From the IMG/VR virus record IMGVR_UViG_3300028392_000172, positions 1 through 34,884 of that record: a stretch of DNA of 34,884 bases; one strand, 5' to 3'. A program made the translations under genes and the position numbers. Below the pieces are notes generated by a model. It did not search any database and was not told where the DNA came from. It saw nothing but the letters and a program-made list of their open reading frames with translations. This stretch comes from a virus. Shown here piece by piece: positions 3,253-31,486 of the stretch (position 1 is its first letter; every line of letters starts with the position of its first letter).

Positions 3253-3957
3253 ATGCCTTGGATGATACCCGCCGCAATTATTGGTAGTTCTTTACTGGGT
3301 TCGAGCGCCGCAAGTAGCGCAGCATCTACACAAGCGAATGCGGCTAATAACGCAGCCAATCTTCAAAATCAGCAGTACCAACAAACTCGGCAAGATCAAA
3401 TGCCGTGGATGCAAGCTGGTCAAACAGCATTAAATGCGCTTACGCCGTTGGTGATGAATTACAGACCGTTCGACATGAACACGTTTGCTCAAGACCCAGG
3501 ATATCAGTTTAGAATGGATCAAGGCACAAAAGCATTGGAGCGCAGTGCGGCAGCCCGTGGTGGCCTTATCAGCGGTAACACTGGCGGCGCGTTGCAAAAT
3601 TACGGTCAAGGGCTGGCCTCGCAAGAGTATCAAAACGCATTTAACCGCTATCAGGCAGAACGCCAAGCCCAGCTTGGCCCGTTGCAATCGTTGGCTGGTG
3701 TGGGTCAAACGACAGCGCAACAATTAGGCACGGCTGGGCAAAATTATGCTACCAATGCAGGCAACATGCTTACCAGTGGCGCGGCAGCACAAGCGGCGGG
3801 GTATATGGGAGGCGCAAATGCTGTTGGTCAAAGTGTCGGTCAATATTTAAATTACAACCAAGGCAATAATTTAGTTTCAGCTTTGCGCGGAAACGGAAGA
3901 TACACTCCTGGCCAAACTTCGGCAAGTGTGTGGGATTCAAGCGCGGGAGAATTTTAA
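3253..3957 (+). CDS. Ejection protein, P22 gp7-like position
   Basis: A 234-residue protein rich in Ala, Gln, Asn and Gly. The N-terminus is hydrophobic (MPWMIPAAIIGSSLLGSSAA) and is followed by a Gln/Asn-rich helical region. The central segment DPGYQFRMDQGTKALERSAA, continuing into ARGGLISGNTG, is a recurrent signature of DNA-transfer (gp7-type) proteins in P22-like phages. These proteins are packed in the head and leave with the DNA to cross the host envelope. It is the first of three tandem large virion genes, matching the P22 order 7-20-16. The next gene starts immediately after its stop. Confidence 0.65.
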   Translation: MPWMIPAAIIGSSLLGSSAASSAASTQANAANNAANLQNQQYQQTRQDQMPWMQAGQTALNALTPLVMNYRPFDMNTFAQDPGYQFRMDQGTKALERSAAARGGLISGNTGGALQNYGQGLASQEYQNAFNRYQAERQAQLGPLQSLAGVGQTTAQQLGTAGQNYATNAGNMLTSGAAAQAAGYMGGANAVGQSVGQYLNYNQGNNLVSALRGNGRYTPGQTSASVWDSSAGEF

Positions 3958-5523
3958 ATGGCACTCGATCCAAACATTGCAATGGGCTACAGGGGCATTG
4001 AAATTGCCAATCCTTTGGCACAGTACGGCCAACTTGCACAAATTCAAAATTATCAAAATCAAAACATAGCTGCTCAAAATCAAAACGCTTTGGCGCAGTA
4101 TCAGCTTGGCGCTGCTCAACGCGCAGACGTTGCGGCAGAAGGTTTAAATAAACTTTACGCTAAGCATTACGATCCTGTTAAAGGAACTGTAAATCAGAAC
4201 GCGCTTATGGCCGAAGCGGCCTCAACGCCTGGGCTTGCTTCGCAAATTCCTAAACTGCAAGAAGCTGCAACTAAACGGGAGCAAGAAGCTGCAACGCTAA
4301 CTGAAACTAAGTCAAAAACTGAAGAACGTCAGTTTAAACTTACAAATGACAAATTAAAACATGGATTGGAGTCGCTTACATCTGCACCAACACCTCAAGA
4401 CGCCATTCAAAAGTTAAATGATGGCATTTCAAAAGGTTTTTTTGACATGAAGACTGCTTTAGCAGAAGCACAAAAACTTCAAAACATGCCACTTGAAGAT
4501 TACCAAAAATACAGAATTGAAAAAATATTAGGTTTGGTAGACGCCAAAGACAAACTTGGTTACATGTTACCTAAAACAACTCGTCAAGATATTGGCGGTA
4601 GCATTGTCAACATTCAAGACAACCCAATGTTGCCTGGCTATGGTTTGCCTGTTCAAGGTATGGCACCGCTTGCTAAAACAATGACGTTTGCAGATAGGAC
4701 TGCACAACAAAACGCTAATCTTGCACGCGAAAAATTTACGTTTGAAAAAGCCAACCCAGGCTTTGAACTTAAAGAAAATGAAAACGGTGAATTTTTTGGA
4801 GTAAACAAGCGCACATTGCAAGCATTTCCTGTCACTATTGGCGGTGGCGCTGCATCGGCTGTTGCACCAATGGTTCAAGGCGCCGGCGGTATGCCTGGAC
4901 CGCGCATGGCGCAGCCTGGCGCTGTCGTGCCAGCCATCCCTGGCATGACTAGCGTGCTTGATCAGACTGCCCCTGCTGTTGCGCCAGCAGCTGGTGGGCC
5001 TCGCCAGTTAGTTGGTAAAGGAACGGCATTGACTGAAAGCCAAGGTAACGCAACCGCGTTTGGTATGCGAATGAAAGAAGCTAATTCAATTTTGACTTCA
5101 TTGGAAAAATCTGGATTTAAAAATACTGGTTTGATTAGCAACGCCGTTGGCAGCACTGTTGGCATAGTCCCATTGCTTGGCGACAAATTGGAAGGCATGA
5201 CCGGTTCTGTTTTTAACGTATTGCCTCAAATCATGGGTGGTCTAAGTCCAGAGCAGCAACAAGTTGCACAAGCTCGAGTTAACTTTATTACCGCTGTACT
5301 GCGTAAAGAATCCGGTGCTTCTATTCAACCATCTGAATTTTCAATGGAAGAAAAAAAATATTTTCCTAAGCCTGGTGATGATAAAACTGTGGTTGCACAA
5401 AAACAAAAAGCTCGAGATTTGGCGATTAAAGCAATGGGAATTCAAGCTGGTCCTGGCGCTAAAAATATTGAACAATATGCGCCAACAAGCGGCTCGGTGG
5501 CACCAACTGTTAGTAACTGGTAA
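3958..5523 (+). CDS. Ejection protein, P22 gp20-like position
   Basis: A 521-residue protein. The N-terminal third is Gln/Asn/Ala-rich and predicted helical (ANPLAQYGQLAQIQNYQNQ). The middle is charged, coiled-coil-like helix (res about 95-140). Around res 300-345 there is an Ala/Pro/Gly linker. The C-terminal part (res about 350-500) has the pattern LTESQGNATAFGMRMKEAN and RKESGASIQPSEF, seen in many phage internal virion proteins. It directly abuts the gp7-like gene. Codon use is noticeably more A/T-rich than in neighbouring late genes. Assignment as the second ejection protein rests on order and composition. Confidence 0.6.
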   Translation: MALDPNIAMGYRGIEIANPLAQYGQLAQIQNYQNQNIAAQNQNALAQYQLGAAQRADVAAEGLNKLYAKHYDPVKGTVNQNALMAEAASTPGLASQIPKLQEAATKREQEAATLTETKSKTEERQFKLTNDKLKHGLESLTSAPTPQDAIQKLNDGISKGFFDMKTALAEAQKLQNMPLEDYQKYRIEKILGLVDAKDKLGYMLPKTTRQDIGGSIVNIQDNPMLPGYGLPVQGMAPLAKTMTFADRTAQQNANLAREKFTFEKANPGFELKENENGEFFGVNKRTLQAFPVTIGGGAASAVAPMVQGAGGMPGPRMAQPGAVVPAIPGMTSVLDQTAPAVAPAAGGPRQLVGKGTALTESQGNATAFGMRMKEANSILTSLEKSGFKNTGLISNAVGSTVGIVPLLGDKLEGMTGSVFNVLPQIMGGLSPEQQQVAQARVNFITAVLRKESGASIQPSEFSMEEKKYFPKPGDDKTVVAQKQKARDLAIKAMGIQAGPGAKNIEQYAPTSGSVAPTVSNW

Positions 5524-5532
5524 GGGGTATAC

Positions 5533-7392
5533 ATGCCACGCGACATCACAGTTACTTTTGATGATGGGTTTACCCACGTTTATCAAAATGCGCCTGACAA
5601 TTTAACGCCAGATGCTGTATCAGCTCGGGCTCAACAAGATTTTGGTAAAGTTGTCAAAGCATTGGACGGTGGCCGCAAAGGTGCTGGAGTTGCACAGGAA
5701 ACACCAGAGGTTTCATTGCGTGATCGGATTATGGGCGTGATTGAAACACCCGCGGCACTTGCCGGTGGTCTTGCTGCCGGCGTTGTGGCGCCCGTGGCCG
5801 GCGTGATTGGTTCGTTGACTAGTGGCAAATACGGAACACAAGCCGGTGTACAGGCTGGCGAACAAGCCGCGCAAGCTGCTCGGGCTCAGTTCTATCAACC
5901 TCGTACCGAGACAGCCAAGCAGATTCTTGGCGCAATTGGCGGCGTTATGGAGCCTCTTACAGGCGCTTTGCCCCCAACCCTTGGCACAGCTGGTGCAAAT
6001 TTAAATGCAATGGTTGGTCCAGCCATGCAACAGGCCGGCGCAGTTGCTCGTCCGGCCATGACTCCGGTACGTAATGCGCTGACCAATGTGATGACCCGTG
6101 AGCAGCCGGCCATGCAAGGCATGGGCGCGGCAACCGCCGCAGAAGATCTGATGCGCCAAGAGCGCTTGCAACGCTTTGGCATCCCTGCTACAGCTGGTGA
6201 GCGCACCAAGAATTTGGCACAACAGCAATTTGAGTCTGAAGTCCAACGTGGTGTGATTACAGGCATTTCTGATGAAGCCAAAACCAAATTGGCTGAACAA
6301 ATGCGTGGTTTTGAGGCTAACAAAAAACAAGCCATTGTCAATAACTTTGAGCGCATGACAAATGATGTGGGCGCTGAAATAGCTGATCCTACGCAATTGC
6401 GCCAAGTGGGCAAGATTGTGGACAAGGCGCTCAATGATGAGTACACCAAAAAATTTGATGCCTACAAATCACTGTACGCCAAGGCAGACAATGCTGGTGA
6501 GACATTGCAGCCAGTGCCATATCAAGCGTTGATTGATTACGTCAATACCAAAACACCAACAATGAGACAAAAGCTGGACCCTATTTTGGATTCAGTGGTT
6601 GAATCGTTGAAGATGAATGATCCTGAGAAAACTGGATCTATTACCGTGCGTGCGCTGGAAGACATTTATCAACAACTCGGCCAGGTCAAAAACTCGCCAA
6701 ATGCTGGCAAGTTGAAGCAGATCATTACTGACATGGGCGAAGGCGCTGGCGGTGAGTTGTATCAAGCTGCACGGGCATCTAGAAAGCAATTGGCCAAAGA
6801 GTTTGAAGATGTCTCGCGTGTTGATAAATTGCTTGGCACAAAAGCAGGCTATACGGACCGCAGGGTGGCATTGGATGATGTGTTCAAACATGTAGTGCTG
6901 GACGGTTCGTTAGAAGAAATGCGAACTGTCACCAAGCTGCTTAAAAAAGCAGGCCCAGAAGGACAACAAGCCTACAAAGAGCTGCAAGGTCAAACTATCC
7001 AACACATGAAAGATTTGCTGACCAAAGGTGATCAGCTGTCTTTCAAAAATCTGAACACTTTGGTTACTCAGCTAGATTCAGAAGACAAACTGGCTTACAT
7101 GTTTGGCAAAACTGGCCGTGATCAAATCATGGATTTACGTGATGCCATCAAAGATGTGGTGGTCAAAGAGCCTGGCGCTGTTAACTACAGCAACACATCT
7201 GGCGCCATGTTGCGTGGCTTAGAGGCTTTGCAATCATTACGTTTGCCTGTTAAATCAGTTGCTGAAGCAGTTCGCACACGCGAAGTCACAGGGAAAGTCA
7301 AAAAAGCATTGGAGCAACCCAACGCATTAGCCCCTGCCCAACCCAACCAAAACGCACTTAGAATTGATTTAACTGGCATGGCCAACAAATAG
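5533..7392 (+). CDS. Ejection protein, P22 gp16-like position
   Basis: A 619-residue protein. It begins ITVTFDDGFTHVYQNAPDN followed by LTPDAVSARAQQDFGK, a short N-terminal module common in phage internal virion proteins. A Gly/Ala-rich hydrophobic stretch at about res 72-105 (PAALAGGLAAGVVAPVAGVI) could insert into a membrane. The remaining 450 residues are long charged helices. This is the third member of the ejection set, whose job is to form the conduit for DNA across the periplasm and inner membrane. A GGGGTATAC leader precedes the ATG; the next gene follows 8 bases after the stop. Function inferred from order and composition. Confidence 0.6.
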   Translation: MPRDITVTFDDGFTHVYQNAPDNLTPDAVSARAQQDFGKVVKALDGGRKGAGVAQETPEVSLRDRIMGVIETPAALAGGLAAGVVAPVAGVIGSLTSGKYGTQAGVQAGEQAAQAARAQFYQPRTETAKQILGAIGGVMEPLTGALPPTLGTAGANLNAMVGPAMQQAGAVARPAMTPVRNALTNVMTREQPAMQGMGAATAAEDLMRQERLQRFGIPATAGERTKNLAQQQFESEVQRGVITGISDEAKTKLAEQMRGFEANKKQAIVNNFERMTNDVGAEIADPTQLRQVGKIVDKALNDEYTKKFDAYKSLYAKADNAGETLQPVPYQALIDYVNTKTPTMRQKLDPILDSVVESLKMNDPEKTGSITVRALEDIYQQLGQVKNSPNAGKLKQIITDMGEGAGGELYQAARASRKQLAKEFEDVSRVDKLLGTKAGYTDRRVALDDVFKHVVLDGSLEEMRTVTKLLKKAGPEGQQAYKELQGQTIQHMKDLLTKGDQLSFKNLNTLVTQLDSEDKLAYMFGKTGRDQIMDLRDAIKDVVVKEPGAVNYSNTSGAMLRGLEALQSLRLPVKSVAEAVRTREVTGKVKKALEQPNALAPAQPNQNALRIDLTGMANK

Positions 7393-21600: not shown

Positions 21601-21689
21601 TGGCGTGCGGTGGGAAAACTGCAGTTGCCGCATTTTTGGGGGACCACGCTTTGGCGTCAGTACCCCGTTTTTTAGGAGTTTACAAGTGA
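21597..21689 (+). CDS. Possible micro-protein (30 aa)
   Basis: A 30-residue frame, MMACGGKTAVAAFLGDHALA and ending SVPRFLGVYK. It begins at an ATGA overlap with RusA and ends at a GTGA overlap with the small terminase start. Only this coupling supports it; it could be a translational bridge rather than a functional product. Confidence 0.3.
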   Translation: MMACGGKTAVAAFLGDHALASVPRFLGVYK

Positions 21690-22195
21690 CTCAAAACTTG
21701 GCGTCTGAAGTGACGGTTAAACGCAGGCCAGGCCGGCCAACCGTGTTTGGTATTGACAATCCATGCTGGCAAATAATGACCGAGCAAATGTCGCTTGGAA
21801 AAAGTTTAAGCACAGCATTAAAAGCCGAAGGAATGCCTTCGTATGATGCCGTGATGATGATGTTGCGAAACAATCTTCAGTTTCGGGAGATGTACGAGAA
21901 AGCCATTGAAAACCGAGCCGACCGTCTGGCTGAAGAAATTCTCGAGCTGGCTGACGAACCCATGCCAGATCATTTGGAAGGACCCATGGCTTCTGCTTGG
22001 GTTCAGCAAAAGCGAATGCAAGTCGATGCGCGCAAATGGATTGCCTCCAAACTCAAGCCCAAAATGTACGGTGATCGCATTGACGTCAGCGTTACCGACA
22101 CCCGCATCAGCGTCTTGGATGCCCTGAACGAAGCTAAACAGCGCGTGCTTCAGGACGATAGCAACGTTGTAGATGTGCAGGCAAAAAATAAATGA
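21686..22195 (+). CDS. Terminase small subunit, Sf6-like
   Basis: A 169-residue protein. After a basic linker (KRRPGRPT), res about 28-60 form a DNA-binding helical domain (IMTEQMSLGKSLSTALKAEG). The segment YEKAIENRADRLAEEILELA and KRMQVDARKWIASKLKPKMY is the oligomerisation part seen in Sf6-type small terminases. It recognises the packaging site and loads the large subunit. The GTG start at 21686 is preceded by AGGAG at 7 bases; an upstream ATG at 21605 would give an out-of-character N-terminus. The non-coding region that follows is a candidate packaging site. Confidence 0.8.
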   Translation: MTQNLASEVTVKRRPGRPTVFGIDNPCWQIMTEQMSLGKSLSTALKAEGMPSYDAVMMMLRNNLQFREMYEKAIENRADRLAEEILELADEPMPDHLEGPMASAWVQQKRMQVDARKWIASKLKPKMYGDRIDVSVTDTRISVLDALNEAKQRVLQDDSNVVDVQAKNK

Positions 22196-22311
22196 TTGTT
22201 GAGGGTTATGCGCTTTTTGCATAGATTCTCAAGAACTACGCGCAGGCGCATAGCCAAAAACTACCGGTTCGGCAAAACCAATAGGCAAAACCTATGACCC
22301 TTTTAAGCCAG

Positions 22312-22320
22312 TTATCCACA
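22312..22320 (+). promoter_or_regulatory. DnaA box TTATCCACA
   Basis: Exact match to the strong DnaA box consensus. An inverted relative TGTGGACAA is at 22350-22358 and a weak TTATTCATC at 22336-22344. Host DnaA could bind this group. Confidence 0.6.
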
Positions 22321-22506
22321 GGGCAAACTGGCAGTTATTCATCGTTGGTTGTGGACAACCGAGTTTGGCGACATACGATCATGTATAACCTGTGCGTAAC
22401 CACGTTACGACTTAACATAATGGACATTGTATAAAGTCGCTGAGTTGTTTGGTATTCATTATGATTTGAGCCGCTAAGTATGTAAGCGCTTACTAACACT
22501 TGGGTT

Positions 22507-22540
22507 GTTGGGTGGCCCAGCCGGCGCTGGCCTGCCCAAC
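22507..22540. repeat. Long GC-rich inverted repeat
   Basis: Outer arms GTTGGG/CCCAAC and inner arms GGCCCAGC/GCTGGCC enclose a CGGC loop, giving an imperfect stem of about 13 pairs. It could be a terminator-like structure for the early rightward transcript or a protein-binding site. There is no T-run directly after it. Confidence 0.6.
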
Positions 22541-22651
22541 TGGCCATGGTCGGGGGGGGTAGGGCCGGCGCGAAAGGGCCACAGGAACGGTAGCCCCGCG
22601 AACATTTTAAAAATATTTTTTATTTTTTAATTTTTCGTTTAACATCACGCC

Positions 22652-24598
22652 ATGCCCATATACAACGCCCTAGCCCAGCAAAGCCAGAATGCGCTTTCAG
22701 CGCCGTTTTTTGGCAACCCTAACATTCAGCGTCAGGGAGCAGCCGCAAGGCAGTTGGCGCAAGCACGGGATGTAAACACTTTGCCGGACCCGCGGACGTA
22801 TGCTGCGGTGCAAGGTTTTATGGGAACGGCGCCGGATCAGATGGGGTTTAGTGTGATGCATCCGGATTACCAAGGCATTCGCAATGTGGCCAATCCGGCA
22901 TATAACTTGGGATTGATGGCGCAGGCCGCACCGTTGTTGGCGCCGTTAACCAAGGGTTTGCCGGTGGGCGCAAGCATTCAGGATTTGAGCAAGGCAGAAT
23001 TGAGGTTGGTTAACTCTGAGGCTTTTGGAAAATTAAAGGGTCAGGAGAAGAACCAAGCGCTCGAGGCGTTCAGGGCCAAGCAAGATGGCACTGGTGTTGG
23101 CCGAAGCATGAAAGAGTTGAAAGCCGCGGTTGGCGGTGAGGAAGATATTGCAAGATCGCTGATGCAGAGTCCGGCGTTTAAGATTTCTGGTGTGGTGCCA
23201 AAGTCGGTGATTGACGATGCGATGATGACCAGGGGCCGCATGAGGGCAGAGCCGGCCACCACGCCTGGCCCAAAGGCAAGTGAAGCTGAGTGGAAAGATT
23301 GGGGTGCCAAGCATGGGGTCAACATGACGTTGACTGAGCCGAAATCACTTGGTGTGTCGGATCTGACGTCTAAGCGTGAGGTCAAGATACCTGGTGGGTT
23401 GGAGGGCACGTTTACTGTGCCTGATATGTTTTGGATGAAGGCAAACAACATTGATCCGGCATCGTTGCCCAAAAAGACGCATGATGAGTTGATGCAGAAG
23501 TTGATTAGGACGCATGAGGTGCAGAACCCTGATCAGGTGGACATGTTTAATCGGTTGAATTTTGCGTTGTTGTCGCCGAATGCGCCGTTGACGCCAAATG
23601 AGTTTTTGGCGCAGCGCATGAGGTTGGTGAATCAGGATGAGTTGCAGGCGTTGGCCGGCAGGGTTGGTGAGCCTGGCCTGTCTAGGACCGCGCAGCTTCA
23701 GACTGGTGTGCAGGCAGCTGGCCGCGGTGGCATGGGTGTGTTGGGTACGGCTGATTTGGGAAATCAAGCAATGTTGGCCAAATTGATTTTGGACAAGCCG
23801 GAGATGTTTCAGATGGCGCCTGGGGAGACTATGCGCGATGTGACTATGCGGGTGATGAATCAGGTGCCAGGCTTGGGGCCAAAGACGGCATCACTTGGCA
23901 CGCCGTGGTTGAATTTGGAGAAGGCCAATACCAGTGCGGTTGATTTGCACATGATCCGTAATTCGTATGAACGGATGTTGGATGATCCGATTGTTGGCCA
24001 AGCGTTCCGTGACCGGATGGCTGGCAAGTTGAAGACAGACGCAACGACAGAAGCTATTTTGGGTAAACCGGTTAAAGATGTTGAGAAGGCTGCGATTGAT
24101 GTGATTGGGGGATCTTCGTTGTCGAAGACGTACCGCACAAAAACTGGTGAGCTTAATGACATCCCTGGTGTGGCCACGCCGGAGAAATTGGCGTATGAGC
24201 CCAAGCAGTTGCAAGATTTCAACCCGTTTTATAAGCGAGTAGTTGATTATGTGGATGAGTCCAGAGGTCCAAATCCAACGATTGAGTTGTTTCCAGAGCA
24301 GTGGCGCAAGTGGGATGTGTACCGTCAGCGTTTGGAGCCCCATGAATTTGCACATCCAGATTACCGGTTGTTGCCCCGCCAGTCATGGACGGAGATGAAA
24401 GATTCCCTAACCGCGCACAAGAAGGCCGGTTATACGCAAGCAGAAAATCCGGTAATGGCGCCATCAGATTGGCGCGAGCTGTACTATGGTGGTGGTGCAG
24501 CTGCTGGATCTGCTTTGGGCATGAATTATGAGTTGCCTAATGCGTTGGCCCAGCCGCCGGTCAATGCGATGCTTCAGCAACAACCGCCAAATCCTTAA
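22652..24598 (+). CDS. Large phage protein with EndoIII-like HhH-GPD signature
   Basis: A 648-residue protein of unknown overall function. Residues 405-414 (VPGLGPKTAS) match the helix-hairpin-helix of EndoIII/MutY glycosylases and 430-436 (VDLHMIR) match the loop with the catalytic Asp. K411 and D431 are 20 residues apart; in E. coli EndoIII (recalled) K120 and D138 are 18 apart. No C-terminal iron-sulphur Cys cluster is present. The N-terminus is Ala/Gln-rich with a hydrophobic segment (about 85-100) and the C-terminus has NALAQPPVNAMLQQQPPNP, as in virion proteins. No ribosome-binding site precedes the ATG, only an AT-rich leader. TAATG joins it to the large terminase. It may be a DNA repair or DNA-handling protein carried in the particle. 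Confidence 0.6.
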   Translation: MPIYNALAQQSQNALSAPFFGNPNIQRQGAAARQLAQARDVNTLPDPRTYAAVQGFMGTAPDQMGFSVMHPDYQGIRNVANPAYNLGLMAQAAPLLAPLTKGLPVGASIQDLSKAELRLVNSEAFGKLKGQEKNQALEAFRAKQDGTGVGRSMKELKAAVGGEEDIARSLMQSPAFKISGVVPKSVIDDAMMTRGRMRAEPATTPGPKASEAEWKDWGAKHGVNMTLTEPKSLGVSDLTSKREVKIPGGLEGTFTVPDMFWMKANNIDPASLPKKTHDELMQKLIRTHEVQNPDQVDMFNRLNFALLSPNAPLTPNEFLAQRMRLVNQDELQALAGRVGEPGLSRTAQLQTGVQAAGRGGMGVLGTADLGNQAMLAKLILDKPEMFQMAPGETMRDVTMRVMNQVPGLGPKTASLGTPWLNLEKANTSAVDLHMIRNSYERMLDDPIVGQAFRDRMAGKLKTDATTEAILGKPVKDVEKAAIDVIGGSSLSKTYRTKTGELNDIPGVATPEKLAYEPKQLQDFNPFYKRVVDYVDESRGPNPTIELFPEQWRKWDVYRQRLEPHEFAHPDYRLLPRQSWTEMKDSLTAHKKAGYTQAENPVMAPSDWRELYYGGGAAAGSALGMNYELPNALAQPPVNAMLQQQPPNP

Positions 24599-26124
24599 TG
24601 CAAACCACAATCTACAAGCCCGAAGACGAACAAGAGGTGATGGCCACTCTGTGGTCACCGGCAATTGCAAACAATCCCGAGGCTTTTGTGTTGTTTGCTT
24701 TTCCTTGGGGTAAAGAGAACACGCCTTTGCACAATTTCAAGGGACCAAGAAAATGGCAAAGGGAAGTGTTGCGAGAGATTACCGAGCACATCAAGCGCCA
24801 GAATGGGTTAATAGACTTTGAAACCCTGCGCCATGCAGTCTCATCTGGCCGCGGTATTGGCAAGTCTGCCCTTGTGTCTTGGCTCACCATCTGGATGTTG
24901 TCCACACGCATAGGCTCAACGACCATTATTTCGGCCAACAGCGAAGCGCAGCTTAGAGCAGTCACATGGGCTGAGATTACCAAGTGGTTGGCCATGAGCA
25001 TTAACAGCCACTGGTTTGAAGTGAGTGCGACAAAAGTAGCCCCTGCCAACTGGCTCACTGAGTTGGTGGAAAAAGATCTGCGAAAAGGCACACGGTATTG
25101 GGCGGTTGAAGGCCGGCTGTGGTCTGCTGAGAATCCAGATTCTTACGCTGGAGTTCACAACCACGATGGTGTGATGGTGATCTTTGATGAGGCATCTGGT
25201 ATTGACGACTCGATCTGGGCGGTGACCGCTGGTTTCTTTACGGAGAATACGCCAAACCGCCTATGGTTGGCGTTCAGCAACCCCCGCCGAAATACGGGGT
25301 ACTTCTACGAATGCTTTAACTCCAAGCGAGATTTCTGGACCAACAAGGTTGTGGATGCGCGCACCGTAGAAGGTACGGACAAGGCTGTGTACCAGAACAT
25401 CATTGACGAATACGGACCGGACTCAAGCCAGGCTCACGTTGAGGTCTATGGCATGTTCCCGTCAGAAGGTGATGACCAGTTCATACCGGCTGACATTGTG
25501 GACGAAGCCATGAAGCGCGAAAAGTACAAGGATCAGACTGCGCCCATCATTATTGGTGTGGACCCTGCAAGGTTTGGCGCTGATGCAACAGTCCTTGCAA
25601 TTCGGCAGGGCAGGGACATTATCCGAATTGACCGGCATCGAGGCGATGACACGATGACGGTGGTTGGCCATATTATTGAGGCCATGGAAGAATGGAAACC
25701 GGCCATGGTGGTGATTGATGAGGGTGGTCTTGGCGCTGGTATTGTTGACCGCCTGAAAGAACAGCGCTACAAGGTCAAGGGCGTAAACTTTGGCAACAAG
25801 TCAGCCAACCCCATTATGTACGGCAACAAGCGTGCTGAGATGTGGGGCAAGATGAAGGACTGGTTAAGGTCAGCAAGCATCCCTAAAGACAGGTTCTTGA
25901 AAACGGATCTGGTTTCACCTATGATCAAGCCTGATTCACGTGGAACAATATTCTTGGAGTCCAAGAAAGACATGAAAGCACGGGGGCTTGCTTCACCGGA
26001 TGCGGCGGATGCCATTTGCGTGACCTTTGCTTTTCCTGTGGCGCACCGAGAGTACAATTTAAAAACAGAGCGCCGTGTGTCTTCTGATCGCGGCATGGTT
26101 TCAACCAGTTGGATGGGGTCTTAA
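24598..26124 (+). CDS. Terminase large subunit
   Basis: A 508-residue packaging motor. ATPase: Walker A SGRGIGKS (83-90), Walker B VMVIFDE (192-198), coupling motif region LAFSNPRR (224-231). Nuclease: D322 in GVDPARFGADAT, D374 in VVIDEGGLGAG and SPDAADA with D468 and D471. It cuts concatemers and pumps DNA through the portal. Start overlaps the preceding stop (TAATG). Separation from the small subunit by a 2-kb gene and a non-coding region is unusual. Length fits the family. Confidence 0.9.
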   Translation: MQTTIYKPEDEQEVMATLWSPAIANNPEAFVLFAFPWGKENTPLHNFKGPRKWQREVLREITEHIKRQNGLIDFETLRHAVSSGRGIGKSALVSWLTIWMLSTRIGSTTIISANSEAQLRAVTWAEITKWLAMSINSHWFEVSATKVAPANWLTELVEKDLRKGTRYWAVEGRLWSAENPDSYAGVHNHDGVMVIFDEASGIDDSIWAVTAGFFTENTPNRLWLAFSNPRRNTGYFYECFNSKRDFWTNKVVDARTVEGTDKAVYQNIIDEYGPDSSQAHVEVYGMFPSEGDDQFIPADIVDEAMKREKYKDQTAPIIIGVDPARFGADATVLAIRQGRDIIRIDRHRGDDTMTVVGHIIEAMEEWKPAMVVIDEGGLGAGIVDRLKEQRYKVKGVNFGNKSANPIMYGNKRAEMWGKMKDWLRSASIPKDRFLKTDLVSPMIKPDSRGTIFLESKKDMKARGLASPDAADAICVTFAFPVAHREYNLKTERRVSSDRGMVSTSWMGS

Positions 26125-26421: not shown

Positions 26422-26660
26422 TTCCCAAAGCCCTGCAAAACTGCCTGATTATGGAGCGTGATGTTGAGACGCACGCTTTGTTTGTATTGCCACCTGGCGA
26501 GAAACTTGGCACTGGTGTGGTACTATCGGCAGGCCCAGATTGCAAAGACGTTAATGTTGGTGATCGTGTATATTTCGATGTCGGGCAAGAATTTACGCAT
26601 GGTGGCAAAGAGTATGTGCTGATGCGCGAACCTCACGTTTTAGGGGTCTTTAATGGCTGA
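26418..26660 (+). CDS. GroES-like co-chaperonin
   Basis: An 80-residue protein with the Cpn10 pattern: a start strand (NCLIMERDV), [26 protein letters not shown], then [16 protein letters not shown]. The ending LMRE-HVLGV matches the last strands of GroES. A mobile loop is expected at about res 15-30 ([13 protein letters not shown]), where it would touch GroEL. Phage versions (T4 gp31 type) help host GroEL fold the coat protein. Placed just before the portal, with an 8-base overlap into it. Shorter than bacterial GroES (about 97). Confidence 0.7.
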
Positions 26661-28872
26661 TCCAACCGGAATGGTCGCTGCGGCTAATGTTGCTGCTGGC
26701 GGCAAACCACTGAAGTCTGACGCAGACATCCTGACCGTTGCGCGTGCAAGGTTGGATATGGCTGTGTCGGCGCTGTCCGAATCCCGTGAAGATGAAACCG
26801 ATGACCTGAAGTTTTACGCAGGCTCACCCGACAACCATTGGCAGTGGCCTGCTGACGTACTGGCCACCCGTGGCGCGGTGCAAGGGCAAACCATCAACGC
26901 CCGTCCTTGCCTAACCATCAACAAGTTGCCCCAGCATGTGCGGCAGGTCACCAACGACCAACGGCAAAACCGCCCAGGCGCTAAAGTCATTCCCGTGGAT
27001 GACAACGCTGACATCGAAGTGGCCGACATTTTTAACGGCATGATCCGGCACATTGAGTACATCAGTGATGCCGATGTGGCCTACGATACGGCATGTGAAA
27101 ACCAAGTGTCTTACGGTGAAGGCTATATTCGCCTGCTGACTGAGTACTGCGAAGACAACAGCTTTGACCAAGACATCAAGATTGGCCGTGTACGCAACAG
27201 TTTCAGTGTCTACATGGACCCTACGATCCAAGACCCAACGGGTGCGGATGCCAAGTATTGTTTTATCACTGAAGACTTGACCAAAGAAGAATTTGAGCGC
27301 ATGTATCCCGATGCTGCGCCGATCACCACGCTTCAGTCGTTGGGTGTGGGTGACCAGTCGATCAGCAATTGGCTTAATGAAGACACGATCCGCATTGCCG
27401 ACTACTACTACATTGACTATGACCGCACAACGCTGAACTTGTACCCTGGCAACGCTACGGCGTTTGAGGGCACACCTGAAGACAAGCAATTAAAAGCGTT
27501 TTACGGCAAACCCATCAAGTCCCGCGAGTCTGACCGCCCAAAAGTGCGGTATTGCAAGATCAACGGCTACGAAATCCTAGAGCAACGCGAGTGGGCAGGC
27601 AAATATATCCCCGTTATTCGCATTGTTGGCAATGAATTTGAGGTGGATGGCCGCTTGTATGTGTCTGGTTTGGTTCGAAACGCCAAAGATGCCCAGCGCA
27701 TGTACAACTATTGGGTGTCCCAAGAAGCTGAGATGCTGGCCTTGGCGCCAAAAGCGCCATTTATTGGTTATGGCGGCCAGTTTGAAGGCTACGAAGACAA
27801 GTGGAAGACCGCTAACACCAACAATTGGCCCTATTTGGAGGTCAATCCAGACGTTACAGACGGTCAGGGCAGTGTTATGCCGCTACCCCAGCGTGCCCAG
27901 CCTCCAATGGCCTCTAGCGGCCTTCTACAAGCCAAATCGGGCGCATCTGAGGACATTAAGTCCACCACTGGCCAATATAACGCCAGTTTGGGCATGGGTT
28001 CTAACGAAAGAAGCGGAAAAGCCATCCTTGCGCGTCAGCGTGAGGGCGATGTAGGTACTTACCACTATGGCGATAACTTAGCCCGTGGCGTGCGTCATGT
28101 GGCCCGTCAACTGGTGGACCTGATCCCTAAGATTTACGACACCCAGCGCATCGCCCGAATTATTGGTGAAGATGGCGACACCAAGATGGTCAAGATTAAC
28201 CCCGAACAACCCGAACCGGTCAACAAGATTGTGGACCAAAACGGGATTGTGCTTGAGAAAATCTACAATCCTGGCGTTGGCAAGTACGATGTCGTTGCGA
28301 CCACCGGCCCAGGCTACGCGACCAAACGTCAAGAGGCTCTTGAGGCAATGGCACAACTGTTGCAGGGTAATCCTCAGTTGTGGGCTGTGGCCGGTGACCT
28401 GTTTGTGAAGAACATGGATTGGCCAGGCGCACAAGAGATGGCCAAGCGCTTTGCCAAGACCATTGATCCTAAGTTGATGAACGACAGCGATGAGAACCCA
28501 GCTTTGCAGGCCGCGCAGCAGCAGATGCAGGCAATGGGTCAAGAAATGGAGCAGATGCACCAGATGCTGATGCACGTTAATCAATCGGTTGAGGTGCAAG
28601 ACACAAAACGCAAGGACTTTGAGGCGCAAGTCAAGGCATACGAAGCTGAGACTAAACGGTTGGCGCAAGTGCAGGCTTCTATGTCGCCAGAGCAAATTCA
28701 GGACATCGTAATGGGCACGGTTCACGGTATGATCACCTCTGGTGATTTGATTGGCGAGATGCCAGGCCGCGATGTTGATGTCGGCGCTGAGATGCCGCAA
28801 GAAGGTATGGAAATGATGCCACCCGAACAACAGATGATGCCACCCGAACAACAGATGGGAATGCCACAATGA
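26653..28872 (+). CDS. Portal protein, P22 gp1-like
   Basis: A 739-residue portal, close to P22 gp1 (725). Recognisable segments include LKFYAGSPDNHWQWPADVLA, RPCLTINKLPQHVRQVTNDQ, RQNRPGAKVIP and EDIKSTTGQYNASLGMGSNE with SGKAILARQREGD, typical of P22-like portals. Twelve copies form the ring at one vertex for DNA entry and exit. The C-terminus (res about 620-700) is a Gln/Met-rich helix matching the barrel region, ending in two PPEQQMM repeats encoded by a 21-base tandem repeat. Confidence 0.9.
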   Translation: MADPTGMVAAANVAAGGKPLKSDADILTVARARLDMAVSALSESREDETDDLKFYAGSPDNHWQWPADVLATRGAVQGQTINARPCLTINKLPQHVRQVTNDQRQNRPGAKVIPVDDNADIEVADIFNGMIRHIEYISDADVAYDTACENQVSYGEGYIRLLTEYCEDNSFDQDIKIGRVRNSFSVYMDPTIQDPTGADAKYCFITEDLTKEEFERMYPDAAPITTLQSLGVGDQSISNWLNEDTIRIADYYYIDYDRTTLNLYPGNATAFEGTPEDKQLKAFYGKPIKSRESDRPKVRYCKINGYEILEQREWAGKYIPVIRIVGNEFEVDGRLYVSGLVRNAKDAQRMYNYWVSQEAEMLALAPKAPFIGYGGQFEGYEDKWKTANTNNWPYLEVNPDVTDGQGSVMPLPQRAQPPMASSGLLQAKSGASEDIKSTTGQYNASLGMGSNERSGKAILARQREGDVGTYHYGDNLARGVRHVARQLVDLIPKIYDTQRIARIIGEDGDTKMVKINPEQPEPVNKIVDQNGIVLEKIYNPGVGKYDVVATTGPGYATKRQEALEAMAQLLQGNPQLWAVAGDLFVKNMDWPGAQEMAKRFAKTIDPKLMNDSDENPALQAAQQQMQAMGQEMEQMHQMLMHVNQSVEVQDTKRKDFEAQVKAYEAETKRLAQVQASMSPEQIQDIVMGTVHGMITSGDLIGEMPGRDVDVGAEMPQEGMEMMPPEQQMMPPEQQMGMPQ
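28813..28854. repeat. 21-bp tandem repeat, two copies
   Basis: The unit encoding MMPPEQQ is present twice without change at the end of the portal gene (28813-28833 and 28834-28854). Copy number may vary between relatives, changing portal barrel length slightly. Confidence 0.85.
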
Positions 28873-29231
28873 AAGCAAACGAGTTTTTAGGTTTGTTGTT
28901 TCTTGCAAGAGATGTGGCGCACAGTGTTCATTTGAACACCCGCAGCTTTTCTAAGCACACGGCGCTAAACATTTTTTACGACCGCATCATTGATGCAGCG
29001 GATGATTTTGCTGAAAGCTATCAAGGCCGTCACGGTTTGATTGGCCCCATCACATTGCACTCGGCCAAGAAAACATCTAACATCATTGAATTCTTGGAAG
29101 ACTCGCTCAAGCAGATCGAAGACGCCAGATATGAGGTGGTTGACAAAACCGATATGTCATTGCAACAACTGATTGACAATATCATTGAGATTTATCTGCG
29201 TACTTTGTACAAACTCCGCTTTCTTGCATAA
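28869..29231 (+). CDS. Ferritin/Dps-like helical protein, DUF5856-type
   Basis: A 120-residue all-helical protein: MKANEFLGLLFLARDVAHSV, NIFYDRIIDAADDFAESYQG, RHGLIGPI and LQQLIDNIIEIYLRTLYKL. It fits the DUF5856 family of tailed phages, which resembles four-helix ferritin/Dps bundles (recalled). H18, H21, D38, D45 and E48 could contribute to a metal site, but I cannot confirm it. It overlaps the portal stop by ATGA. Role unknown; DNA protection or capsid assembly are possibilities. Confidence 0.6.
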   Translation: MKANEFLGLLFLARDVAHSVHLNTRSFSKHTALNIFYDRIIDAADDFAESYQGRHGLIGPITLHSAKKTSNIIEFLEDSLKQIEDARYEVVDKTDMSLQQLIDNIIEIYLRTLYKLRFLA

Positions 29232-29509: not shown

Positions 29510-31486
29510 ATGTCCAACGTCAAAATTTCCCAACTCCCTGCGGCCACCACGCCCTTGGGCGGGACGGAGGTTTTGCCTCTGGTCCAAGGCACAACGACCA
29601 AAAAGGTCACGGTTGCTGAACTACGTTCGACTGCTGTCACGGCAGTGACTGGCACTGCGCCTGTAGTTTCTTCGGGTGGCCTGACCCCTGCGATCAGTAT
29701 GGCTGCGGCCTCTACTTCGACCAGTGGTTATTTGACCTCGACCGACTGGAATACGTTTAACGGCAAATACTCAACCGGCGGTGCTTTGGGCACTCCGTCC
29801 TCGGGCACAGCCACCAATTTGACAGGTTTACCTTTGACCACGGGCGTTACGGGTACTTTGCCCATAGCCAATGGCGGTACGGGCACAACTACGCCTGCTT
29901 TGGTGGCGGGTTCAAACGTCACGATTACGGGCACTTGGCCTAATCAAACAATTGCATCAACCGGCGGTAGCAGTGGCGTAACTTCGTTTAGCGCAGGCTC
30001 AACTGGTCTGACACCTTCTACGGCCAGCACGGGCGTCGTGACTTTGGCCGGTACGTTGGCAGTAGCCAATGGCGGTACAGGGACAACCACACCATCTTTG
30101 GTTGCGGGCACAAACGTGTCCATTACTGGAACTTGGCCAAACCAGACAATTAACTCATCTGGCGGTGGCGGTGGCGGCATGGTCTACCCTGGCGCTGGTA
30201 TTGGCAATTCTACCGGCACAGCTTGGGGCACTTCATACAGCACCACTGGTACAGGCACTGTGGTGGCTTTGGCAACCAGCCCTACGTTTGTAACTCCCGT
30301 TTTGGGAACACCAACGTCGGGCGTGGCGACTAACTTAACCGGCCTGCCTTTAACTACCGGCGTGACCGGCACACTGCCCGTCTTAAATGGTGGTACGGGC
30401 GTCACAACTTCAACCGGCACCGGTTCCGTTGTTCTGTCTACTTCGCCAACTTTGGTCACACCGTTGCTGGGTACACCAACTTCTGGCGTGGCGACTAACC
30501 TAACCGGTTTGCCCTTAACCACTGGCGTGACCGGCACTTTAGGACTTGCTAACGGCGGTACGGGTCAAACGACTGCGGCTGCGGCAATTACAGCCCTAAC
30601 TGGCACACAGACCAGTGCGTATTATCTGCGTTCTAACGGCACAAATGCTACGCTTTCAGCACTTGCTGCGGCTGACTTGACAGGCACAGTAGCAATTGCC
30701 AGCGGCGGTACAGGGCAGACTACTGCGGCGGCTGCCATCACTGCCTTGACAGGCACTCAGACCACAGCGTATTACCTCCGATCCAACGGCACAAACTCTG
30801 TGTTGGCGGCTTTGGCTGCGGCTGATGTTACTGGCACTTTGGCGGTGGCAAACGGCGGTACAGGTGTTACAACAAGCACAGGCACGGGTTCTGTTGTCTT
30901 ATCAACCTCGCCCACTTTGGTTACTCCTTTGCTTGGTACGCCGACATCCGGTGTGGCTACCAATTTGACAGGTCTACCCTTGACCACAGGTGTTACGGGT
31001 ACTTTGCCTGTAGCCAACGGCGGTACTGGGGTTACAACTTCCACGGGTTCTGGCAACACTGTATTGTCTACTTCGCCTACTTTGGTTACTCCCGTTTTGG
31101 GAACACCAACTTCAGGTAACTTAAGCAGTTGCACTGCCGATGGCACAAACGCTGTTGGTTATTTAAACATTCCAATCAACAGTCAAAGCGCAGCATATAC
31201 ATTAGTTTTGGCAGATGCTGGCAAGGCCATTTTGCATCCTTCAACAGATGCCAATGCTCGAACATTTACAATCCCCGCAAACGGTACTGTGGCTTTTGCT
31301 ATAGGCACTGCGGTGACGTTCATCAACATGACATCGCAAGTTGTGTCTATTGCCATTACAACCGATACCCTTTATCTGGGCGGCACAGGTACAACTGGCA
31401 CACGTTCGCTGGCGCAGTACGGAACGGCAACATGTATCAAAATGACCAGCACCACTTGGATCATTAACGGATCGGGCCTGTCATGA
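29510..31486 (+). CDS. Repetitive tail fibre protein
   Basis: A 658-residue fibre. The N-terminus (NVKISQLPAATTPLGGTEVL, PLVQGTTTKKVTV) is a common attachment segment. Residues about 90-520 are repeats built from ATNLTGLPLTTGVTGTL, ANGGTGVTTST and VVLSTSPTLVTPLLGTPTSG. One block inserts two AAAAITALTGTQT-AYYLRSNGTN units. The C-terminal 110 residues (LVLADAGKAILHPSTDANAR, TFTIPANGTVAFAIGTAVTF) form a beta knob seen in many phage fibres. It probably trimerises and carries the adhesin encoded next (ATGA overlap). Placed unusually between portal and scaffold. Confidence 0.8.
   Translation: MSNVKISQLPAATTPLGGTEVLPLVQGTTTKKVTVAELRSTAVTAVTGTAPVVSSGGLTPAISMAAASTSTSGYLTSTDWNTFNGKYSTGGALGTPSSGTATNLTGLPLTTGVTGTLPIANGGTGTTTPALVAGSNVTITGTWPNQTIASTGGSSGVTSFSAGSTGLTPSTASTGVVTLAGTLAVANGGTGTTTPSLVAGTNVSITGTWPNQTINSSGGGGGGMVYPGAGIGNSTGTAWGTSYSTTGTGTVVALATSPTFVTPVLGTPTSGVATNLTGLPLTTGVTGTLPVLNGGTGVTTSTGTGSVVLSTSPTLVTPLLGTPTSGVATNLTGLPLTTGVTGTLGLANGGTGQTTAAAAITALTGTQTSAYYLRSNGTNATLSALAAADLTGTVAIASGGTGQTTAAAAITALTGTQTTAYYLRSNGTNSVLAALAAADVTGTLAVANGGTGVTTSTGTGSVVLSTSPTLVTPLLGTPTSGVATNLTGLPLTTGVTGTLPVANGGTGVTTSTGSGNTVLSTSPTLVTPVLGTPTSGNLSSCTADGTNAVGYLNIPINSQSAAYTLVLADAGKAILHPSTDANARTFTIPANGTVAFAIGTAVTFINMTSQVVSIAITTDTLYLGGTGTTGTRSLAQYGTATCIKMTSTTWIINGSGLS
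30398..31006. repeat. Two 144-base repeats identical in protein, divergent in DNA
   Basis: Copies at 30398-30541 and 30863-31006 each encode the same 48 residues (GVTTSTGTGSVVLSTSPT to TTGVTGTL). By direct comparison 34 of 48 codons differ, all silently. Partial copies flank them. Confidence 0.85.

Follow-up and report, generated by a model that had tools for sequence, protein, structure and literature searches.

The gene lying between the two terminase genes of an environmental, P22-like, short-tailed virus encodes a cysteine-free protein of 648 amino acids, in which a helix-hairpin-helix motif and a following aspartate are arranged as in DNA glycosylases of the HhH-GPD superfamily. We consider it rather probable that this is a polyvalent-type protein which is ejected as cargo and whose Ogg-like glycosylase/AP-lyase domain acts on DNA during entry; catalysis, substrate and virion location are all what we infer.

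Genomic setting of the gene

The window, i.e. the whole stretch of 34,884 nucleotides that was analysed (IMG/VR record IMGVR_UViG_3300028392_000172), was annotated with PHROGs. The placement of the protein between terminase genes, claimed in an earlier note made from the letters alone, agrees with this annotation, which identifies the flanking genes as terS and terL (Table 1); head-tail adaptor, head closure, DNA-ejection and scaffold genes are found farther from the target ORF. The packaging genes follow one another as in the P22 annotation, except that one extra gene stands between genes 3 and 2. This gene is preceded by a 456-base non-coding leader (22196-22651) with no Rfam family and no tRNA, and with only a weak promoter-like site at 22352-22379.

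Table 1. Features of the window discussed in the text, with residue numbers of the target protein where they apply.
Feature	Position	Strand	Basis or remark
Three ejection-type proteins	3253..7392	+	One DNA ejection (phrog_598), two placed like P22 gp20/gp16; all Cys-free
Terminase small subunit (terS)	21605..22195	+	phrog_1482
Target ORF, putative ejected HhH-GPD-like (Ogg-type) protein, 648 aa, 0 Cys	22652..24598	+	Translation
N-terminal module (residues 15-120)	22694..23011	+	Shared with SLT-bearing proteins of polyvalent type that lack the glycosylase core
HhH-GPD-like domain (about residues 265-490)	23444..24121	+	AlphaFold models, Foldseek matches, hhalign
LLSPNAPLTPNEF (residues 306-318), colinear with the EndoIII LLSAQATDVSVNK helix B-C segment	23567..23605	+	Invariant residues; equivalence judged by eye, no tool
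VPGLGPKTAS (residues 405-414), HhH hairpin with K411 (23882-23884)	23864..23893	+	Conservation, hhalign
VDLHMIR (residues 430-436) with D431 (23942-23944)	23939..23959	+	Conservation, hhalign
Invariant block LFPEQWRKWDVYRQRLEPHEFAHPDYRLLPR (residues 546-576), family-specific	24287..24379	+	Conservation
Terminase large subunit (terL)	24598..26124	+	phrog_2; start overlaps the target's stop codon
Portal protein, P22 type	26653..28872	+	phrog_156

In contigs with a similar TerL, the slot between terS and terL holds the core of the target family, other proteins of 370-830 aa whose N-terminus is related to the MPIxNALAQ start of the target, or nothing. With contents that vary in this way, the slot acts as a site for cargo. 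The corresponding region of the window is 22196-24598, and the different proteins found there in other contigs (L082, L086, L094, L100, L106, L108 and L110) are Cys-free. The slot proteins probably form a family of ejected effectors that can be exchanged for one another, and the slot offers a way to find further ones, by position and absence of cysteine. The protein of L082 looks like an ART by eye, but it has no match to PF18760 and was not retained as such.

Two further genes of the window were recorded. A DUF5856-like gene (28869-29231) stands after the portal gene, and elsewhere genes of this type lie directly upstream of the glycosylase-like gene (L193:7239-7619, L203:4677-5039, L204:3179-3541); a functional partnership of the two proteins is possible. 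At 29510-31486 the window encodes a repetitive, tail-fibre-like protein with many GVTGTLPVANGGTGTTT-type repeats.

Putative catalytic motif and predicted fold

Translation of the target ORF reproduces the two motifs on which the earlier note had built its proposal, and hence K411 and D431. The target has the HhH hairpin and then the [V/I]D.[H/N] with the catalytic Asp that characterise the HhH-GPD superfamily. In none of the 68 distinct relatives from IMG/VR (48-100% identity) is K411, D431, G407 or T412 replaced, and H433 varies in two of the 68 distinct cores; the loss of K411 or D431 in homologues, which would have spoken against the proposal, was thus not encountered. A regular expression for the motif pair, built post hoc after the motif was seen and broadened to cover the family, is present in 71/71 long relatives and in 0/13,351 unrelated ORFs of the fetched contigs (1.6 million aa), with about 7e-8 occurrences expected per protein of the target's composition. 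In Nth and OGG1 the Lys is the AP-lyase nucleophile and the Asp the catalytic acid, and the Lys found throughout the family would predict a bifunctional glycosylase/AP lyase.

The core was modeled confidently by AlphaFold (pLDDT 86, pTM 0.85), with helix, VPGLG hairpin, helix, loop, D431 and helix in the succession that HhH-GPD active sites have. Searched by Foldseek against 350,542 PDB chains, this model had 8-oxoguanine glycosylases as its best five matches. With a domain-only model (pLDDT 75) the first 17 matches were all HhH-GPD glycosylases, mainly from the Ogg2/Ogg1 branch that lacks the Fe-S cluster, with archaeal/thermotogal Ogg2 leading. Single matches are weak (E-values 0.2-3, TM about 0.35-0.41, all below 0.5), and the strength of this model-based evidence is the consistency of the list and not the individual scores; the overall HhH-GPD fold is assigned by prediction alone, from top matches that are all HhH-GPD. 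Profile comparison by hhalign placed K411 and D431 in register with K120 and D138 of E. coli Nth, and the family scored 36.4 against a small EndoIII/MutY profile, whereas none of 60 column shuffles exceeded 23.0. Once the motif was masked, no sequence similarity between the family and glycosylases was left, and global hhalign was unsuccessful, so that the homology claim rests on the motif and the predicted fold. No family member matches the Pfam HhH-GPD profile PF00730, and we therefore call the protein HhH-GPD-like without assigning it to the Pfam family; this, together with the weak individual scores, points to a remote, new HhH-GPD-like family. Two of the checks suggested in the earlier note, structure prediction and profile comparison, came out in its favour, the hairpin and the VDxH helix being present in the model and the two residues aligning with those of Nth. 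As for its term "EndoIII-like glycosylase", the HhH-GPD resemblance stands, but EndoIII is not the nearest enzyme, Foldseek placing Ogg2/Ogg1 closest.

The Ogg2/Ogg1 8-oxoguanine glycosylases (PDB 3n0u, 3knt, 3fhf) resemble the target in helix order, in the HhH with Lys, in the Asp opening the next helix and in having no Fe-S cluster. The target differs from them in lacking a detectable sequence family match, in a K-D spacing of 20, in large N- and C-terminal additions, in the absence of Cys and in its phage late-gene location. In Endonuclease III (E. coli Nth), LPGVGRKTA...VDTHIFR is in register with VPGLGPKTA...VDLHMIR of the target, but the target is without the Cys4 Fe-S loop and its structural match to Nth is weaker than to Ogg2. 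We also considered as an identity the alpha-glutamyl/putrescinyl-thymine pyrophosphorylases, which are HhH-like hypermodification enzymes; no such profile was matched in Pfam.

Across the 68 distinct cores, the C-terminal block LFPEQWRxWDxYRxRxEPHExxHPD shows no more variation than the glycosylase motif, and no relative of this block without the glycosylase core was found among the ORFs examined. The segment LFPEQWRKWDVYRQRLEPHEFAHPDYRLLP (24287-24379), for which no relative is known and whose HExxH falls in a predicted loop, is possibly a second active or metal site. The reading of its EPHEFAHPD as a zinc peptidase motif was unsupported and was rejected because the HExxH sits in a loop, not a helix, of the model.

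Relatives, fused modules and cysteine content

About 90 relatives were found in IMG/VR contigs, and the conserved core of the family spans residues ~143-614. Sequence-only searches of Pfam, PHROGs, NCBIfam and PDB sequences gave no match to the family. No relative was detected in 84,980 bacterial and archaeal genomes (GTDB), nor in INPHARED phages by tblastn with four family members and with the N-terminal module. In a viral structure library, an uncharacterised protein of an uncultured Caudovirales phage (A0A6J5LUD9) is similar to the target family with a TM of 0.84. Phage relatives of EndoIII were sought in IMG/VR and none was found; the ones in INPHARED appear to be contaminating bacterial sequence. 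One 98% identical copy of the gene (L014:5992-7943) is split into two frames (199 + 459 aa) by a frameshift or sequencing error.

Wherever it could be resolved, the gene is located in the terminase/portal/head block, with one exception (L066) whose neighbour is a tail-fibre gene. Core genes adjoin terS/terL or follow the portal gene, and three portal families are involved (phrog_156, phrog_12082, phrog_1216); the target is thus encoded with the virion and packaging genes of a terminase-portal phage, as polyvalent proteins are. In four contigs (L046, L055, L060, L070) the core is fused in frame to an ART-PolyVal domain scoring above the curated cut-off. One of these (L070:5521-8535) has, between the core and ART-PolyVal, a portion of its own N-terminal part a second time (profile positions 30-129). 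The N-terminal module is found without the core in proteins that start with a transglycosylase SLT domain (L075, L077), the one in L075 being located between terL and portal. Relatives with ART-PolyVal carry at least two disparate domains per polypeptide; the target itself has one recognisable enzymatic domain. In its place in the portal/terminase block, its modularity, the ART-PolyVal fusion and the N-terminal module common to SLT-bearing proteins, the family is like the phage polyvalent proteins, a known kind (Iyer et al. 2017, PMC5512222); the main text of that paper names no DNA glycosylase domain.

The earlier note had remarked that the iron-sulphur Cys motif is missing, and the target contains no Cys anywhere, which leaves no Fe-S loop. 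Likewise, 68/68 core domains are without Cys, and the Cys4 [4Fe-4S] loop of the Endonuclease III family is absent from them. Only 2 of the 7,257 residues in the known ejected proteins of P22, T7 and N4 are Cys, whereas the other proteins of those phages contain 119 among 14,116; in the core family we counted 26 in 59,087 aa, a tally made over stop-to-stop frames. Cys-free sequences account for 52/71 core ORFs and 30/340 other long ORFs, a difference whose Fisher P of 1e-28 is overstated because the sequences are related. The scaffold and some coat, fibre and other structural proteins are also Cys-free, so that the loss of Cys is not specific for ejection and is suggestive only. P22 gp7/gp16/gp20, T7 gp14-16 and the N4 vRNAP are, like the target, nearly Cys-free and encoded with virion genes, but no sequence relation between them and the target was found. 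The N4 vRNAP is Cys-free and injected, and papers on N4-like phages attribute the absence of Cys to injection (PMC3915230, PMC2784036).

Proposed role at DNA entry and alternatives

The earlier note's idea of a protein packaged with or loaded onto DNA gains from these results, since the ART-PolyVal fusions, the cargo slot and the Cys-free composition all suggest it. As we picture it, the protein would be made late and carried in the particle head, leave with the genome through portal and tail and refold in the cell. There, its central domain, a putative remote Fe-S-free HhH-GPD fold of the Ogg type, would flip out and remove a damaged or modified base at DNA entry by means of D431 and of K411, which occupies the position of the Schiff-base nucleophile. 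A glycosylase/AP lyase having neither cysteine nor Fe-S cluster could be threaded through the portal. The substrate may be the entering phage DNA or host DNA, and we lean slightly towards repair of the entering genome, for which a small number of copies would be enough, rather than towards an attack on host or modified DNA. That these proteins make up a virion-carried family of Cys- and Fe-S-free glycosylases/AP lyases, which act in the first moments of infection, whether on the incoming genome, as repair, or against DNA that is modified or belongs to the host, is a claim that we advance tentatively.

RNA polymerases, lysozymes, ADP-ribosyltransferases and nucleases are all known among ejected phage proteins. 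A base-excision enzyme, if confirmed, would extend this list to the chemistry of DNA bases during entry. One would then have to ask whether virions come equipped to mend lesions acquired outside the cell, or armed against host or modified DNA. In keeping with the earlier note, which knew of no described system of this kind, our literature search found no description of a virion-delivered DNA glycosylase; phage HhH-GPD genes as such are already known, e.g. Streptomyces phage Sf3 gp35 (PMC5336643).

Alternatively, the target could be an ejection or packaging protein without glycosylase activity, in which the HhH-GPD-like fold is retained only to bind or bend DNA. The motif core is the only part recognisable by sequence, HHH is a general DNA-binding motif, searches with single fragments also match RecR, and the strongly invariant EPHExxHPD block indicates that other parts of the protein are at least as constrained. 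We nevertheless judge such a non-catalytic role unlikely: beyond the hairpin, both catalytic-type residues are invariant, and a Lys/Asp pair in these places is not required of HhH proteins that lack catalytic activity. A little less likely still is an intracellular late protein that would act in packaging without being ejected, for example by inspecting or repairing concatemers ahead of terminase cleavage. The position of the gene between terS and terL, with overlapping stop and start codons, is what such a protein would lead one to expect, but in other phages the gene follows the portal, the slot may be empty or occupied by unrelated Cys-free proteins, relatives are fused to ART-PolyVal, and the protein shares the lack of Cys with ejected proteins. 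Compared with these two readings and with the ejected glycosylase that we prefer, a chance resemblance of the motif within an unrelated fold appears very improbable. The missing family-level match in the sequence searches would fit it, but it is opposed by the very low expected frequency of the motif pair and by the HhH-GPD enzymes that ranked first in both runs of an independent structure search.
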